A stretch of DNA of 64,000 bases from Acidithiobacillus ferrooxidans ATCC 23270 (lineage in GTDB: Bacteria; Pseudomonadota; Gammaproteobacteria; Acidithiobacillales; Acidithiobacillaceae), in contig NC_011761.1 in assembly GCF_000021485.1 (NCBI RefSeq), positions 1,518,001 to 1,582,000 on the forward strand, in the 5' to 3' direction. Within the stretch, counting starts at the first letter, position 1. The number at the start of each line of letters is the position of its first letter. The position numbers and the translations under genes were made by a program. Positions 1 to 7,412 of the stretch are shown piece by piece. Below the pieces are notes generated by a model. It worked only from the letters and a program-made list of their open reading frames with translations. It ran no database searches and had not been told where the DNA came from.

Positions 1-1
1 G

Positions 2-421
2 GTGCTTCATGAACGAGTCGTCATCCTCACCATCAAATTTGAGGAGGAACCCCGCGTCCTTCCCGCGAACCGCGTGGTAGTGCTGGATTACGGGCAGGGG
101 GTGCGCCGACTCACCGCCCGTTATGGATTCATGGAACACCCAGACATTCCTGAGATTCTGAAATCTGCTGAAAATTCAGACAACCTATGGAATCCGTTGG
201 ATACCACGTATTTCGTTTCTCGCCAACGGGTCATTCCGACCGCCAAGGCGTCGCTTTCTTTATGGAGAGAACACCTGTTTGCCATCATGCTCCGCATTTC
301 CGCCAATGCCACCGACTTTTTCCGGCTCCCGCCCAATCTGGTGATGGAACTGGGAGATGTTGTCGAGTTTTCGCATAAGGTCCCCGATGCGCCAAAGAAG
401 GAAAAGACCACACAGCAATAG
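2..421 (+). CDS. kup: Kup-family potassium transporter, C-terminal part (gene starts before the window)
   Basis: The open frame runs in from the left edge and stops at 421, giving the last 139 residues of a protein that is normally about 620 residues long. Kup proteins are inner-membrane K+/H+ symporters with 12 membrane segments and a soluble C-terminal domain. What is visible is that soluble domain. The stretch around residues 68-117 (TYFVSRQRVIP, then LWREHLFAIM, then ATDFFRLPPN) matches the conserved Kup tail, in which a Tyr-Phe-x-x-Arg strand is followed by a Leu-Trp-Arg helix and the Phe-Phe-x-Leu-Pro motif. The tail ends in a charged Lys-rich segment. The gene lies on the island side of the tRNA fragment at 4500, so it could be cargo of an integrated element; the left end of that element is outside the window. 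Confidence 0.88.
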   Translation: MLHERVVILTIKFEEEPRVLPANRVVVLDYGQGVRRLTARYGFMEHPDIPEILKSAENSDNLWNPLDTTYFVSRQRVIPTAKASLSLWREHLFAIMLRISANATDFFRLPPNLVMELGDVVEFSHKVPDAPKKEKTTQQ

Positions 422-506
422 CAGACCAACTCCACTTGTTGCGAAGCTCAGGCCGTGGGAACCTATGCCTACAACGCGCAGAGCCCGGACTGGATGGAGG
501 TATATC

Positions 507-866
507 GTGAGCATTCGTGTGGAAGAGATCGAAAAGATGGATTTTTCCGATGTGGCGAATTTGCGCGCAGGTCGGTCTGTCCCCATTCACCCCGGCGAAA
601 TCTTGCTGGAAGATTTTCTGAAGCCGATGGGTATCACCCAGTACCGTCTAGCCAAGGAACTCTGCGTCCCGCAGCTCCGTATCGGGGAGATCGTGATAGG
701 AAAGCGGGCTGTTACCCCGGATACCGGGCTGCGGCTGTCCCAGTTTTTCGGGATGAGCGACGATTTCTGGGTGGGCCTGCAAATCGATTACGACCTTGCC
801 GTGACGCGCCACGCCATGCAGGCAGTTCTCAATAAGATTCAACGATACGACGTTCATGCGGCGTAA
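507..866 (+). CDS. HigA-family antitoxin (XRE-type helix-turn-helix), no toxin gene beside it
   Basis: This 119-residue protein has the HigA/VapI layout: an N-terminal HPGEILLEDFL motif (about residues 28-38), then a helix-turn-helix (ITQYRLAKELCV... RIGEIVIGKR) and a C-terminal FWVGLQIDYDL helix. HigA proteins neutralise a RelE-like HigB ribonuclease and repress their own operon. I chose the GTG at 507 because GGAGG lies 7 bases upstream; an internal ATG at 537 would give 109 residues and has no such site. The toxin gene normally sits directly upstream, but only 85 bases separate this start from the kup stop and they encode nothing like HigB. It is therefore an orphan antitoxin or free regulator. 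Confidence 0.82.
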   Translation: MSIRVEEIEKMDFSDVANLRAGRSVPIHPGEILLEDFLKPMGITQYRLAKELCVPQLRIGEIVIGKRAVTPDTGLRLSQFFGMSDDFWVGLQIDYDLAVTRHAMQAVLNKIQRYDVHAA

Positions 867-985
867 CGACCAAGATCCACTGGTAACGACTCCGGCAGGA
901 TGAGTTTGCCACACTCTGGGCAGGTGGACTGAAAGGCTATATTGCAGCGGGAGCAGTCATTCACAAATTTGTGGTTAATGAATTC
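854..985 (-). pseudogene. Zinc-ribbon coding remnant (CxxC...CxxC), no start codon
   Basis: On the minus strand a frame of 43 codons reads as a compact zinc ribbon: Cys-Ser-Arg-Cys, then seven residues, then Cys-Pro-Glu-Cys-Gly-Lys. It runs from just after a stop codon near 992 to a TGA at 854-856, overlapping the last codons of the HigA-like gene by 13 bases. There is no ATG or GTG at the 5' side, so I treat it as the broken end of a larger gene, possibly a zinc-ribbon protein of a mobile element. It could also be chance, since the frame is short. Confidence 0.3.
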
Positions 986-1429
986 TCGCGGTCAGATCTA
1001 CGGGGTTTCAAATGGACGCGATGAACGTGTCGCTAATTGACCTGGATGTCGAGACCGGTATCGCAAAACCACCTACCGCAGCAGGTGGTCATGTCAGTTG
1101 ATCCGTGCCTTGTAGTTCATCAATTGCCCAAGAAAATCTTTTGGTTTTCGAGCCCGAGCCGAAGTGATGTCTGAGCGTAAAAAAGAGTTATATAGCGGCG
1201 TTGCATTTAAACATTGAAACCGCTAGGTCCAAACTTCATGTAGCCATATGGAAACAGTTTGTGCTGGAAGGAAAAGGCAATGTTTTTAGATTGTTATATC
1301 GTGCAACGGGGTTTGGATCCAAATATTATGTAGCCAAATTGGAACAGGTACGGCAACATATTGTTCTGTATTTCTTATCGGCATAAAGTTTGCATGGCAC
1401 TCTTGATAACACCAGTTGAGGAGGCTTTC
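867..1429 (+). other. Long non-coding stretch with two degenerate direct repeats
   Basis: No convincing plus-strand gene lies here. The notable content is a pair of imperfect direct repeats of about 32 bases, at 1226-1257 and 1315-1347. Each contains the core TCCAAA-N5-ATGTAGCCA followed by GGAA(A)CAG. They are spaced 89 bases apart and end about 80 bases before the secreted proline-rich gene. A 7-bp hairpin (ACCACCT/AGGTGGT, 1068-1089) has no T-tract after it. The repeats could be tandem regulator sites or relics of a mobile element. Confidence 0.45.
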
Positions 1430-1915
1430 ATGAATAAATCAATTATTATGTCACTGATCACGCTCGGCACGATGGGCATGGCTAGTTCTGCCTTTGCCGC
1501 ATTACCCTCTACAGGCCCGGCGGCCCCCACGGCCCCCCTGCCACCGATTGGATCAGGACCCGCAGCGCCACTACCTGGCAGCGGACCGGTAGCCCCGACG
1601 CCAATTGGTGCCCCGATGCCCTCCGCCCCAGCCCCAGCGCCATTACCCAGTCCTAGCTCTTATGCTGCTACACCGGCGCAACCAAATGGTTCTGGTAACC
1701 CTGCGACCCCAGCCATGCCGGGAAATCCCAAAGCCTACAATCAGGTGATTACCCACCGGCGGGGGTATGATGACAACAATGGTATGATGCGAGGAAATGT
1801 TGGTCCAGTTCATGCGATGCGACCCGACATGGTGCGACCCGACATGGTGCGACCCGAGGTAGGTCGCCCCAATATTGTTCGGCCCAATATCGGGCGCCCA
1901 CATTTTCCGCACTAA
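1430..1915 (+). CDS. Secreted proline-rich protein with short C-terminal repeats, unknown function
   Basis: The start at 1430 has GAGGAGG a few bases upstream and opens a 161-residue protein with a clear Sec signal peptide (two Lys/Ser residues, a hydrophobic core, Ala-Phe-Ala cleavage motif near residue 23). The mature part has low complexity. About 80 residues are rich in Pro, Ala, Gly and Ser, followed by a short polar region (HRRGYDDNNGMMRGN). The tail repeats Arg-Pro-(Asp/Asn/Glu)-(Met/Ile/Val)-(Val/Gly) about five times. Two of those repeats are exact 15-base tandem copies (1821-1850). It is probably exported to the periplasm or cell surface. The outer-membrane protein gene follows 66 bases later and may be co-transcribed. 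I do not recognise a family. Confidence 0.75.
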   Translation: MNKSIIMSLITLGTMGMASSAFAALPSTGPAAPTAPLPPIGSGPAAPLPGSGPVAPTPIGAPMPSAPAPAPLPSPSSYAATPAQPNGSGNPATPAMPGNPKAYNQVITHRRGYDDNNGMMRGNVGPVHAMRPDMVRPDMVRPEVGRPNIVRPNIGRPHFPH

Positions 1916-1981
1916 TTTCAGCCAGTCCATAGTCGGCAGGGGGGTTCCCTGCCGCAACTAAATAATCATAAGGAGTATACC

Positions 1982-2764
1982 GTGCGCTGGAGCCATTTTG
2001 TGATCATCTCTTGTCTGGGAGTAGGGGGGGCTGGTATCGCCCAAGCCGCTCCTCAATTCACCGTCGGTGATATGCCCTCATTTTTTCAAGGTTCTTTTGG
2101 AACTAACAGCACCTTGAACATTTTTTACAATGATACCTACTTTCAATACCAGAACAGCACGCTGCGCCTGAAACTCGAGGTGCCCTACCTTTCAGTGAGT
2201 GGGCTTCCCAATGGTGCCTCCCTTTCTGGAGGAAGCGTGGTGAGCCGTAAAGGCGTTTCTACACAAACCCACAGTGCGAGCGGTATCGGAGATGTCTGGC
2301 TAGCAGCCCATTACACCGTGCTACAAAGTAGTGGGCTGATGCCCGCGATCGTGCCCTTTGCCAAAATCAAGTTCGGCACGGCATCCGCCTCACAGGGGCT
2401 CGGTACCGGCAGGAATGACTATGAAATCGGCATGGGGCTGGACGAAACTATTGGCGCCCGGATTTTCCCTTTTGCCCATATTGCCTATCGTTTCGTGGGC
2501 AACCCCCCTGGCAACAACCTCCAGAATATTTGGACCTATAACATTGGCTCTAGTTATCTCGTTGATGAGCATAACGTCCTCACCGGGATGTTTGATGGGG
2601 CGCAATCGGAACAGCCAGGGTATTCCGGCCCGGCAGATCTGGTTGTCGCCTGGAACTACAATGTTACCCGTGCAGGTAGCGGATTCCAGCTATACTTCGA
2701 CAAGGGTCTCAGTAACGGTAGTCCAGACTTCGGGATCGGGATAGGTGGGCAAGTGGTATTCTAA
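1982..2764 (+). CDS. Outer-membrane beta-barrel protein (transporter or phenol-degradation MetA-like)
   Basis: The start is a GTG with AAGGAG upstream. The 260-residue product begins with a signal peptide that ends at Ala-Gln-Ala-Ala near residue 23. It continues as alternating polar and hydrophobic strands rich in Tyr, Phe, Gly and Asn, and ends in Val-Val-Phe. A C-terminal Phe is the usual recognition signal for insertion of barrels into the outer membrane. Segments such as SGIGDVWLAAHYTV and VPFAKIKFGT resemble the MetA-pathway/transporter barrel group, so a small-molecule channel is plausible. It follows the secreted proline-rich gene and may form a two-gene surface unit with it. Substrate unknown. 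Confidence 0.72.
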   Translation: MRWSHFVIISCLGVGGAGIAQAAPQFTVGDMPSFFQGSFGTNSTLNIFYNDTYFQYQNSTLRLKLEVPYLSVSGLPNGASLSGGSVVSRKGVSTQTHSASGIGDVWLAAHYTVLQSSGLMPAIVPFAKIKFGTASASQGLGTGRNDYEIGMGLDETIGARIFPFAHIAYRFVGNPPGNNLQNIWTYNIGSSYLVDEHNVLTGMFDGAQSEQPGYSGPADLVVAWNYNVTRAGSGFQLYFDKGLSNGSPDFGIGIGGQVVF

Positions 2765-3057
2765 CCGTAGAACTGTCCCGACAGTTGGTTTACTCTGCAC
2801 CACCCCAGTCTTCTAAAGAACGCCACAGTTGGCAGGAATGTGGCGTCATCAGCAAACATCTCCCGGCTGCTGTGGTTATTGAACTGCCGTTCAGGCCGGC
2901 CCCGACTACCAGAATCTTGCCGCTGATCATGGAGTAGCCCGTTTCAATGACGGCACCAAGTCTTGGTGTGCGCATCCTTTTTCAAGGCATGTCAGTAGTC
3001 AGGCGCCTTCATTCTCTCTGGGTTCCGCAATCAATCAGGTTCTGGAGCAACGACCCG
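2765..3057. other. Intergenic stretch with no supported gene
   Basis: Between the barrel protein and the minus-strand HIRAN gene there are 293 bases. A minus-strand open frame (2790-2975) contains a Gly-rich segment (ISGKILVVGAGLNGSS) but has no ribosome site and no family I recognise. It could be the rest of a decayed gene. Confidence 0.3.
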
Positions 3058-3363
3058 TCAAAGCCAGAATACCACGACTTTCTGTGGCTTGCCCCCTTGC
3101 CTGCGGATGCGCTGCTCAATGTGCCCCGTGATCTCTCCGCCGGTGTCCAGCTTTTGCAGTACGGCATCACGGTTGCCGTCTTTACGATAGAGCCAACCGA
3201 TAGGCGTTTTCGGGTGCCCCCCAAGCCATATCCCCACCGCATCCCGATCATATGGGTTGGCTGTATCCCGAGCAATCCGAACCTGGTTATCCAAAGGGAT
3301 ACCAGACAGGCCAGAGGCTTCAGGGAACGCCTGGTTTAATGCAAGATTTGAAATTCGTCGCAT
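3058..3363 (-). CDS. Small HIRAN-domain protein
   Basis: This 101-residue minus-strand frame matches the HIRAN core: Arg-Ile-Ala-Arg-Asp-x-Ala-Asn-Pro-Tyr-Asp-Arg-Asp-Ala-Val at about residues 28-42, then a Gly-rich turn and PIGWLYRKDG at about 53-62. HIRAN domains bind 3' DNA ends and are usually fused to helicases or nucleases; a free-standing one is less common. The ATG is the first after an in-frame stop but lacks a good ribosome site. In the same frame, behind that stop, lies another ATG (about 3482) with a strong GGAGGAAAG, so translation may really begin upstream with a nonsense mutation or an upstream peptide between. Family call moderate, start uncertain. Confidence 0.5.
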   Translation of the reverse strand: MRRISNLALNQAFPEASGLSGIPLDNQVRIARDTANPYDRDAVGIWLGGHPKTPIGWLYRKDGNRDAVLQKLDTGGEITGHIEQRIRRQGGKPQKVVVFWL

Positions 3364-3495
3364 GGTTACCGGCTATAGCTTACGGCACCGGCCACCGGAG
3401 CATTGGCCCCGGTCCCGTTGCAGCCTAATGTTGCCATGCAGGCTTTTGGCCGACTGTAGAGCAGTTGCAAAAGCAACTTTGAACATTGAGCTTTC

Positions 3496-3575
3496 CTCCA
3501 GATCAGAACCCGCTTGGGTATAGATCGAAGGATCTGGAGATGCCTGAAGCGGCGCACCCGCGTCCGATCTATACC
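3496..3575. repeat. Two interlocked perfect inverted repeats
   Basis: CTCCAGATC (3496-3504) pairs with GATCTGGAG (3531-3539). GGTATAGATCG (3517-3527) pairs with CGATCTATACC (3565-3575). The order is A-B-A'-B', so the two stems interlock instead of nesting; in RNA this is the layout of a pseudoknot. A 10-bp palindrome CCTGGCCAGG (3574-3583) follows at once. The block sits between the minus-strand HIRAN leader and the plus-strand gene at 3613, where divergent promoters or operators would be expected. Confidence 0.6.
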
Positions 3576-3612
3576 TGGCCAGGAGTCGGACTCAGAGCAA
3601 GGGGAGGGGGGG

Positions 3613-3783
3613 GTGAACTACGAAGAAATTGAAGTTCCAGACGCGCTGCTTTGCGAGTCAGCATTTACCGAGGACAGGGCGCCAGACTTGCTCATTGCTG
3701 CGGCCTGGGCCATAAACGGGTATCGTTGCTCCGCTGAACATTTGCAGCAAGAAGAGCCACAGGAAGATGTTGATGTGGGTTGA
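3613..3783 (+). CDS. Small acidic protein of unknown function
   Basis: A GTG at 3613 follows a purine-rich AGGGGAGGGGGG tract and opens a 56-residue acidic protein (many Glu and Asp, ending in Glu-Asp-Val-Asp-Val-Gly). It overlaps the next gene by 11 bases, which suggests translational coupling. I see no known domain; a central Leu-Ile-Ala-Ala-Ala-Trp-Ala helix could form a small helical fold. It may be the first gene of a two-gene unit in the accessory segment. Confidence 0.45.
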   Translation: MNYEEIEVPDALLCESAFTEDRAPDLLIAAAWAINGYRCSAEHLQQEEPQEDVDVG

Positions 3784-4300
3784 ATCATTGGGTTACACGA
3801 TCCCGCAAGACCTGCGTAAAGAGCTTTCCTTGCTTGCCGACTTGCTTCCGGAGCAAAGCCCTTTGCCATATGCAAAGGCCAGACTCCTTGTGCTGTCGTG
3901 GAGCAAGCTCGGCGAGGAAGCCCTGGCCTGGGCCGGAGCAAACCTGGTCATCAAGATTGATCCAGCCCTCTACGAATCTGGAGATCCGGCATACGGCCCC
4001 AGTCCCATGCAGGCAGTGAACCGATCGGTTGACCTTTGGAAGCCGTTCACACATGAACACTGGCGAGAACATGTGCGAGAAATGAGCCTGTTCGACCTGG
4101 CTGTTTACCTGAAACTGAAGGTGGGAACGTGGGGAACGACGCCGATAGCCCGCCGGCGGCATGTCACAAAAGATCGGCTTGATGGTCTTGGACTTGGGTG
4201 TCAGATTCACCCTGCCAACTCGACTACCTCGCTCTTCATATGTGGCGAGCGATCGCTGCTTGAGATTGTTGAATTAGACCTTGCGGACCAGATCAAGTGA
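3773..4300 (+). CDS. Hypothetical protein, 175 residues
   Basis: I place the start at the ATG at 3773, which has AGGAAG six bases upstream; the ATG at 3767 sits directly against that site. The protein looks soluble, with an N-terminal helical region (DLRKELSLLADLLPEQ), a middle WKPFTHEHWREHVREM segment and a C-terminal leucine-rich strand-helix. It has no signal peptide or membrane segment and no catalytic motif I can name. It overlaps the small acidic gene before it and lies just upstream of the tRNA fragment, so it is probably cargo of an integrated element. Confidence 0.5.
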   Translation: MWVESLGYTIPQDLRKELSLLADLLPEQSPLPYAKARLLVLSWSKLGEEALAWAGANLVIKIDPALYESGDPAYGPSPMQAVNRSVDLWKPFTHEHWREHVREMSLFDLAVYLKLKVGTWGTTPIARRRHVTKDRLDGLGLGCQIHPANSTTSLFICGERSLLEIVELDLADQIK

Positions 4301-4499
4301 TGTTTTGCGCACCACTTTAGAGCGGCTGGCCATGTCGGATTTGTACCGCGCGGAGGGACATTGGTGGTGTGGGCCGGAGCGCAGATCTGCTTAGTAGTGA
4401 CGGCAGAGGTTGAGTGCATTCTGAGTGCAATTTGTTGCACTCTACTGGCTGTCAACGCCTTTCAGTTCCTTTTTAAATAAGTATCCACAAGCATGCAAA
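4301..4499. other. Element-end spacer with one small palindrome
   Basis: No gene is seen between the hypothetical protein and the tRNA fragment. There is a perfect 8-bp inverted repeat GAGTGCAA/TTGCACTC (4423-4442) with a 4-base loop. Only three T residues lie nearby, so it is not a clear terminator; it could be a recombinase-arm or operator site at the end of the element. Confidence 0.35.
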
Positions 4500-4548
4500 T
4501 GCCTTCACACGGCAGGGGTCGCAGGTTCGAACCCTGCACCGCCCACCA
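4500..4548 (+). tRNA. 3' half of a tRNA-Val (anticodon CAC): probable attachment site, 5' half missing
   Basis: The 49 bases fold as the 3' part of a tRNA. A 4-bp anticodon stem TGCC/GGCA encloses loop TTCACAC (anticodon CAC). Variable-loop bases follow, then T stem and loop GCAGG-TTCGAAC-CCTGC, the 3' acceptor strand ACCGCCC, discriminator A and encoded CCA. A complete gene would begin with GGGCGGT and have a D arm. Upstream there is only unrelated AT-rich sequence, and the fifth anticodon-stem pair is already broken (A4499 opposite G4515). Downstream the native terminator is intact. This is what remains when a tyrosine-recombinase element inserts into a tRNA gene and displaces the original 3' end. 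Confidence 0.8.
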
Positions 4549-4564
4549 GATAAAACAAAATGTT

Positions 4565-4593
4565 AGGCGCTACCATGAGCGCCTTTATTTTTC
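4565..4593 (+). terminator. Terminator of the interrupted tRNA locus
   Basis: AGGCGCT (4565-4571), loop ACCATG and AGCGCCT (4578-4584) form a perfect 7-bp stem followed by TTATTTTT. It lies 17 bases after the CCA of the tRNA fragment and marks this side as the original chromosomal tRNA locus. Confidence 0.75.
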
Positions 4594-4799
4594 TCTGTGA
4601 AATTTCTGGCGTAAAGCCGCCAAAAGCCGTGTCCATAGCCTTTCTCTGGGCCGGAGCCCTACGCCCAAGGTGGGTACGGTCATCACCTTGGCGTATACCT
4701 GCTACAGGTCGCGACGGCGGCGGGAAACCCTCGCCTGGTCATCAGGTCAACGTGCTCCTTGTCTACACAAAAGCACGGGCAATAACATTTGGTTGGCGC

Positions 4800-7412
4800 T
4801 CATAACCCGTCTTGCCGCGCCAGTTCTTTGAGTGCGTAAACCAGGTCCAGGGCCTGTCTGGGGCTGAGTTGGTCCGGTTCCACCTGACTCAACCGGTATA
4901 CTGCCGGATGAGGAGCGGCCTGGAAGAGGGAGAGTTGGGCGGGCGCCGTATGACTGAGCGATGATCTGGAGCTTTCTTCCAGTTGACGGAGGCGTTGGCG
5001 GGCGCGCTGCACAACCGGGTCAGGAACTCCGGCAAGCCGGGCGACCGCCAGACCGTAACTCTGCGCGGCTGGACCACTCTCCACCCGATGCAGAAATACG
5101 ACCTGATCGTCTTGTGTCAGCGCGTCGAGATGGGCATTGCGCAAGCCGGGCAGATCCAGCTCCGTCAATTCAAAATAGTGAGTGGCAAAGAGTGTGCGGG
5201 CGCCTCGTTCCGCCAGGGCTTCCGCCGTGGCCCAGGCGATGGACAGGCCGTCGTGGGTGGCCGTACCCCGACCGATTTCATCCAGAATCACCAAGCTTTG
5301 TGCCGTGGCGAGGTGGAGGATACGCGCCGTTTCGCTCATTTCCACCATGAAGGTGGAACGGCCTCCGGCGAGATCGTCGGCAGCGCCGATACGGGTGAAA
5401 ATCTGGTCGACGGGGCCGATGACCGCTTCGCGGGCAGGCACCCAGCTGCCAATGTGGGCCAGCAGGACGATGAGCGCCGTTTGCCGCATGTAGGTGGATT
5501 TGCCGCCCATATTCGGCCCGGTAATGAGCAACATCCGCCGTTCCTCGTCAAAATCGAGATCGTTCGGGACAAAATTGCTGCCGATCTGAGCTTCGACTAC
5601 GGGATGACGGCCGTCATGGATGTGTAACACCGGTTCCGTGACGAAATGCGGGGCGCACCAGTGTAAGGTGACGGCGCGCTCGGCCAGCGTGCTGAGCGCG
5701 TCCAGTTCGGCGACGGCAGCCATGGCGTCCTGTAAGGCCGGCACCTCCGGGGATATGGTTTGCAGTAGCTGCGTGAAGAGCAGACGTTCCCGGCTCAGGG
5801 CCAGACTTTCCGCCGAGAGGGCCTGGTCTTCGATCGCTTTCAATGCATCATTGATGTAACGTTCGGCGTTCTTGGTGGTCTGGCGGCGACGATAGTCGTC
5901 GGGAATGGGGCCCTGATAGCTGCGGGCGATCTCGATATAAAAACCATGTACCCGGTTGAACTGGATTTTGAGCTGGGCGATGCCGGTGCGCTGACGCTCC
6001 TGCTGCTCCAGGTCACGCAGCACTTCCTGTAGATTCTGGCTGAGTTGCTGCAGGCGATCCAGCTCCCCATCGTGGCCGGCACGGATGTAGCCTCCATCCC
6101 GCTGGGTCATGGGCGGAGTGTCCACCAGGGCCTTTTCCAGCAGGGTGCGGAGGGTGACGAAAAGCGTTATGCGCTGCTCAAAGACATCCAGAGCCGGATT
6201 CCCCGTTTCCTGGATAACGAGTCGCAGTCCGGGGAGTGCCTGGAGGGTGCTGCGGAGCTGGGCGAGATCGCGGGGGCTGGCGTTGTTCAGGGCTATGCGG
6301 GTGAGAATGCGTTCGGCGTCGGCGATACCGTGCAAGGCCTTCTGAATGGCAACCGGTCCGCTGCCTTGGGTGAGTGCGGCGACGACTTCCTGGCGGGCCG
6401 CCACCACGGGTCCTTGCCGCAGCGGTCGCAAAAGCCAGCGGCGGAGCAGGCGCGCACCCATGGTGGTCTGGGTTTTTTGCAGCAAGGTGAGCAGCGTGGG
6501 GCCATTCCCCTGTAGGCTTTCCACCACCTCCAGCGCCCGCAAGGCGGTCGCGTCGAGATGGAGCTCCTCCTCGGCGCGCTCCGGATGAATCCGCTGGATT
6601 TGGCTCAGACTGCTGCGCAGCCGGGTCTCGGCATAGTTCAGGAGTGCGGCAGCAGCGCGCAGGGCGAGGGGCCAGTCATTACACCCGAAACCCACCAGCC
6701 GTTCCCCGAAATAGCGTTCAAGTACTGCATCGCAGCGTCGCGTCTGAAAGCCGGTTTTCTCCAGAAATTGCAACTTTTTCGGGTCGATTCCAGCGGGAAC
6801 CGGTGTATCTTCCGGGGCGATGATTTCGGCGGCGGGGCGGCGCGCGAGAATATCCGCGACGGCGGTGTCGGCCACTTCACGCACCCTGAGGTGGCCGCCG
6901 GCAGCGTCCAGCCAGGCCATGCCGCAACGTGTGCCTTCCGGACACAGGGCGAGGAGCAGGGGCTCCTGTCCGCCATCCAGCAGGGCACCGTCAATAATGG
7001 TGCCGGGGGTGATGATCCGCACTATGGCGCGTTCCACCGGACCCTTGGCGGTAGCCGGGTCGCCGATCTGCTCACCGATGGCCACCCGTTCGCCCAGACG
7101 CACCAGTTTGGCGAGATAGCCATCTACGCTCTGGACGGGTACCCCGGCCATGGGAATGGCCCGTCCCGCGCTCTGCCCGCGGCTGGTGAGGGTGATGCCG
7201 AGGAGTTGGGCGGCCTTTTCGGCATCGTCGAAAAATAGTTCGTAGAAATCCCCCATGCGGTAGAACAGCAGGGCATCCGGGCACTGTTCCTTGAGCTCGA
7301 AGTACTGGCGCATCATGGGAGTATGTTGCCGAATGGCGCCGGACTCATTCACCGGGCCGCCGCCCCGTTTCCGCTCCGCGAGCGGTGGGGCGGGTGTGCT
7401 GCACTGTTCCAT
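4800..7412 (-). CDS. mutS: DNA mismatch repair protein MutS
   Basis: The 870-residue product has the full MutS order. The N-terminal mismatch-binding domain includes the Phe-Tyr-Glu loop ([10 protein letters not shown], about residues 51-60). Connector, lever and clamp domains follow. The C-terminal ABC ATPase has Walker [11 protein letters not shown] near residue 630, the Walker B segment [11 protein letters not shown] and the ATHYFEL histidine switch. It detects mismatches and recruits MutL. E. coli MutS has 853 residues, so the length is normal. The first 20 residues are Pro/Gly-rich and a later start (GTG or the Met-Met before RQYFELKE) is possible. A small DUF465 gene lies 24 bases upstream on the same strand and is probably co-transcribed. 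Confidence 0.97.

Follow-up and report, generated by a model that had tools for sequence, protein, structure and literature searches.

The window analysed here is the whole 64,000-nucleotide stretch at bases 1518001-1582000 of the single-contig genome (2,982,397 bases) of At. ferrooxidans ATCC 23270. Its left edge carries the end of kup, two open reading frames and, next to mutS, an incomplete tRNA-Val(CAC) gene followed by a terminator (Table 1). The incomplete gene (TGCCTTCACACGGCAGGGGTCGCAGGTTCGAACCCTGCACCGCCCACCA) spans the tRNA from the interior of the 5' anticodon stem to the CCA, including the loop, the T arm, and the acceptor strand; no tRNA was called by ARAGORN in the window. The terminator is a hairpin followed by a T-run (GGCGCT-ACCATG-AGCGCC-TTTATTTTT). 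The original prediction had described this site as half a tRNA-Val(CAC) gene with its native terminator. Both features are indeed present, and the terminator is native because the same sequence follows the intact tRNA at the unoccupied site of a sister species (G010).

Table 1. Features at the left edge of the window (window positions unless marked otherwise).
Feature	Position	Strand	Evidence or remarks
Right end of 175.6-kb ICEAfe2 (genome 1346955-1522548)	1..4548		Repeat pair, G010 empty site, published coordinates
kup, C-terminal part, variable cargo	2..421 (whole gene, genome 1516433-1518421)	+	Pfam K_trans_C
Conserved right-end module common to the elements in G000 (ATCC 23270), G012, and G008	2879..4450 (about)		Includes ORF 3058-3363 (-) and ORF 3767-4300 (+)
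Paired direct repeat TGAGTGCATT/TGAGTGCAAT, candidate arm-type integrase sites	4411..4431	+	89 and 78 bp left of the core
Possible third, inverted repeat copy GTTGCACTC	4434..4442	-	In ATCC 23270 and G012, not in G008; weak
attR core, displaced 3' half of tRNA-Val(CAC), 49 bp	4500..4548	+	Direct repeat of attL 1346981-1347029 in the same genome; matches the published iMGE4 attL/R repeat
Native intrinsic terminator of the original tRNA-Val gene, chromosomal side	4566..4592	+	Same sequence after the intact tRNA in the G010 empty site
mutS, right-flanking chromosomal gene of the attachment site	4800..7412	-	Neighbour of the tRNA (G010) or of the displaced half (G008, G009)

An intact tRNA-Val(CAC) gene, the only one found in the genome, is located on the same strand at 1346955-1347029, 175.6 kb to the left of the half gene. 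The 3' part of this gene (1346981-1347029) is the second copy of the 49 bp, and no third copy was found in the genome at up to two mismatches. In the alignment of the two copies, the continuous identity ends leftward inside the anticodon stem, as the original prediction had noted, and rightward after the CCA, where scattered matches follow. The copies differ at one base in the T-loop, which is G in the window and A in the intact gene. This difference was considered as a marker of the crossover and rejected, as A is present at this position in the intact genes of other species. It is probably a later mutation that does not map the crossover, because it is absent from the left tRNA of a related genome, G012.

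The intact gene is accompanied by a gene for a tyrosine recombinase of 331 aa on the minus strand (1347049-1348044), the 3' end of which is 20 bp from the tRNA. An intact tRNA-Val(CAC) with an integrase had been expected to the left of the window, and the proposed search for a second copy of the 49 bases beside a recombinase gene thus found both, with one mismatch in the copy. The reading frame of the integrase is open, without an internal stop; the protein matches the Pfam profile Phage_integrase (3.2e-24), and the R, H-x-x-R, H, and Y motifs are visible. Its close relatives among the named genomes searched were found only in Acidithiobacillus, with weak ones elsewhere. A small ORF upstream of int, with an HTH_17 match below the Pfam cut-off, is excisionase-like by its position. 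The repeat extends from the anticodon region to the 3' end of the tRNA, with the intact tRNA on one side, the displaced half on the other, and a tyrosine recombinase gene adjoining the att site from inside, which is the arrangement of elements whose tyrosine recombinases target the anticodon loop of tRNA genes. The sequence common to the att sites around the anticodon loop is GCCTTCACACGGC. The recombinase of the element most likely cleaves within the seven bases of the anticodon loop (TTCACAC, flanked by the stem halves TGCC and GGCA). Recombination of Acidithiobacillus ICEs was reportedly placed in the anticodon stem/loop by Castillo et al. in 2018.

The comparison with relatives revealed the site in empty, occupied, and possibly remnant states. 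In the sister species G010, the left flank (95%), the intact tRNA, the same terminator, and mutS follow one another in one stretch. The original prediction had pointed to the possibility that kup and the following genes lie at the same place in strains with an intact tRNA; this is not so, since these genes are absent at the site in G010, where kup is found elsewhere. The sequence after the half gene in the window matches that after the intact tRNA of G010, and the sequence after the intact tRNA of ATCC 23270 does not. Thus, it is the native 3' half that was displaced, and the 3' half of the working gene was supplied by the element. The arrangement in G012 is as in ATCC 23270, with the two copies 169.5 kb apart. 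In G008, an 87%-identical integrase (one TAG is contained in the match) adjoins the intact tRNA, and the displaced half is next to mutS on another contig. G013 has a 3' integrase fragment of 114 residues (87%) after the intact tRNA-Val (L113, 15595-15966); the displaced half was not found in this draft genome, and the fragment is either a remnant or the result of an assembly break. In G009 (L010/L112, L124), the integrase (64% identical) is encoded on the side of the displaced half, which adjoins mutS; a different contig holds the intact tRNA. With related insertions or remnants in these four other members of the genus, the tRNA-Val(CAC) site is therefore a repeated target within Acidithiobacillus. 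In G009, the 3' half of the working tRNA also differs from the displaced half by paired changes in the T-stem (ACAAG/CTTGT vs. ACAGG/CCTGT), a pattern that selection on the element-supplied half as a tRNA would be expected to produce.

A random partial duplication or a decayed second tRNA gene, with no element involved, is almost certainly not the origin of the half gene. Although duplication alone could yield a partial tRNA, the homology ends in the anticodon stem here and likewise in four other genomes, an integrase lies beside the intact partner, and both flanks are contiguous in G010, whose empty site was the ground for rejecting a random duplication. We conclude with a probability of about 0.96 that the half tRNA is the attR of ICEAfe2 (iMGE4), a 175.6-kb integrative and conjugative element that occupies the sole tRNA-Val(CAC) gene found. 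The integrase encoded just inside the left end would cut in the anticodon loop of the tRNA. ICEAfe2 carries its own copy of the 3' half, so that a functional chimaeric tRNA is retained at the left end. The native 3' half was pushed 175 kb rightward together with its terminator.

The element was identified by its genome coordinates (1346955..1522548), its Val-CAC target, and its 49-bp repeat, all of which equal the published ones. iMGE4_ATCC23270 is an ICE at 1346955..1522548 with attB Val-CAC, a gene of 75 bp, and a repeat of 49 bp, and its status is given as candidate, not validated (PMC10322971 Table 1). ICEAfe2 was named as an element of 176 kb (PMC4226512), its carboxysome and RuBisCO genes were described (PMC6416229), and it was called actively excising (PMC10561277). 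Int, the Trb-type T4SS, the type I RM, and the size of ~176 kb are shared, so this is the same element (PMC10322971, PMC4226512); there is no difference in the finding itself, and the paired arm-type repeats described below are additional. The identity to the base with published ICEAfe2/iMGE4 means that the finding is correct but ordinary, as both ends were already known, and the half tRNA is a scar of the textbook kind. ICEAfe1, in the same strain, is likewise a large ICE in a tRNA gene with a similar repeat of the 3' end (76/48 bp), but it differs in its tRNA-Ala target, Tra-type transfer system, and size of 291 kb. For the iMGE4 variant of strain CCM 4253, tRNA Ala-CGC is listed (PMC10322971 Table 2) vs. 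Val-CAC for the type-strain element; this entry may reflect another site or an error in naming.

The interval flanked by the two tRNA copies codes for a relaxase, a VirD4-type coupling protein, and VirB4-, VirB6-, VirB9-, VirB10-, and T2SSE/VirB11-type proteins. It further carries genes for a lytic transglycosylase, a type I restriction-modification system, an ArdC-like antirestriction protein, three GGDEF/EAL proteins, and a DabA carbon-uptake pair. By its gene content, with relaxase, coupling-protein, and type IV secretion genes present, the element is integrative and conjugative. The finding fixes both ends of a 176-kb conjugative element with inorganic-carbon uptake genes (DabA) in a bioleaching bacterium, to which RuBisCO and carboxysome genes are added by the literature, and the comparison shows reuse of the site across the genus. 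Near the left end (1357799-1364395, L023/L024), a 2198-aa DUF4011/AAA helicase-type protein adjoins the type I restriction system and is a possible defence gene. The repeat pair could also belong to an old genomic island that was inserted once by the integrase and is now fixed and unable to excise, and iMGE4 is only a candidate in PMC10322971 Table 1. However, the integrase frame is free of internal stops, the cores and candidate arm pairs of both ends are preserved, conjugation genes are present, and active excision is stated in PMC10561277, which makes immobility improbable. We infer that ICEAfe2 still excises in present-day ATCC 23270.

All of the sequence to the left of window position 4500 had been regarded as element cargo. 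It is all element DNA, but variable cargo, with kup, is confined to the part left of ~2.9 kb, and the rest is a conserved module that contains the HIRAN-like and the 177-aa ORFs. The similarity of the right end to both G012 and G008 begins at the same base, window position 2879 (genome 1520879), where the conserved end module is sharply divided from the variable cargo with kup. kup is absent from G012, which has a related element at the same site.

Pairs of the form TGAGTGCA-N3/4-TGAGTGCA were observed just inside each end of the element, with a constant spacing to the crossover. A pattern search for TGAGTGCA-N(2-5)-TGAGTGCA returned exactly two pairs in the 3-Mb genome, at 1347075-1347094 and 1522411-1522429 (window 4411-4429), while the number expected in the examined 246-kb stretch is ~0.0003. 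Relative to the first base of the core, the repeats start at +94/+106 and -89/-78, identically in ATCC 23270, G012, and G008; the left spacing of +94/+106 also occurs in G013, where the second copy is TGAGTACA. Judging from these patterns, the pairs are probably arm-type sites of the integrase, and such candidate sites make integration and excision directly testable. The left pair in ATCC 23270 falls within the last codons of int (NALNNALN) and could thus be a by-product of coding sequence, and the pairs could otherwise serve another protein (excisionase, IHF/HU, or an int regulator). This appears unlikely, because the right pair is not near int, and its spacing of -89/-78 is kept in G008 although the right arm-to-core spacers of G008 and ATCC 23270 are identical at just 24 of 68 positions. 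Moreover, G009, with its 64%-identical integrase, has a changed repeat, TGGTGTAAT/TGGTGCAAT (TGGTGYAAT), which occurs two or three times on each side at almost unchanged distances, with int on the opposite side.

The likeness of these probable arm sites to the system of heterobivalent tyrosine recombinases of the lambda Int kind lies in a core site with paired direct repeats on both arms, whereas arm binding in ICEAfe2 is deduced from sequence only. A complex of the lambda type would also be consistent with the genes for IHF_A and HU that ICEAfe2 is reported to carry. We lean towards the view that the integrase family acting on the anticodon of tRNA-Val(CAC) keeps a fixed arm geometry (~-89/-78, +94/+106), in which the arm sequence varies with the integrase and int may be on either side of the core. 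If this is true, the evolution of arm-binding specificity independent of the core could readily be tested in this family. The paired repeats and their geometry are the only part for which no match was found in the accessible literature, and further papers may contain them. The intact tRNA of G015, G020, and G023 is likewise followed by similar repeats, single or paired, which suggests more elements or remnants. Repeats of the GGTGTAAT type, as in G009, occur ~95 bp after the core of the intact tRNA-Val at L012, L017, and L019 (at L017 also at 107 bp), and may mark additional elements or remnants in other genera of the family.
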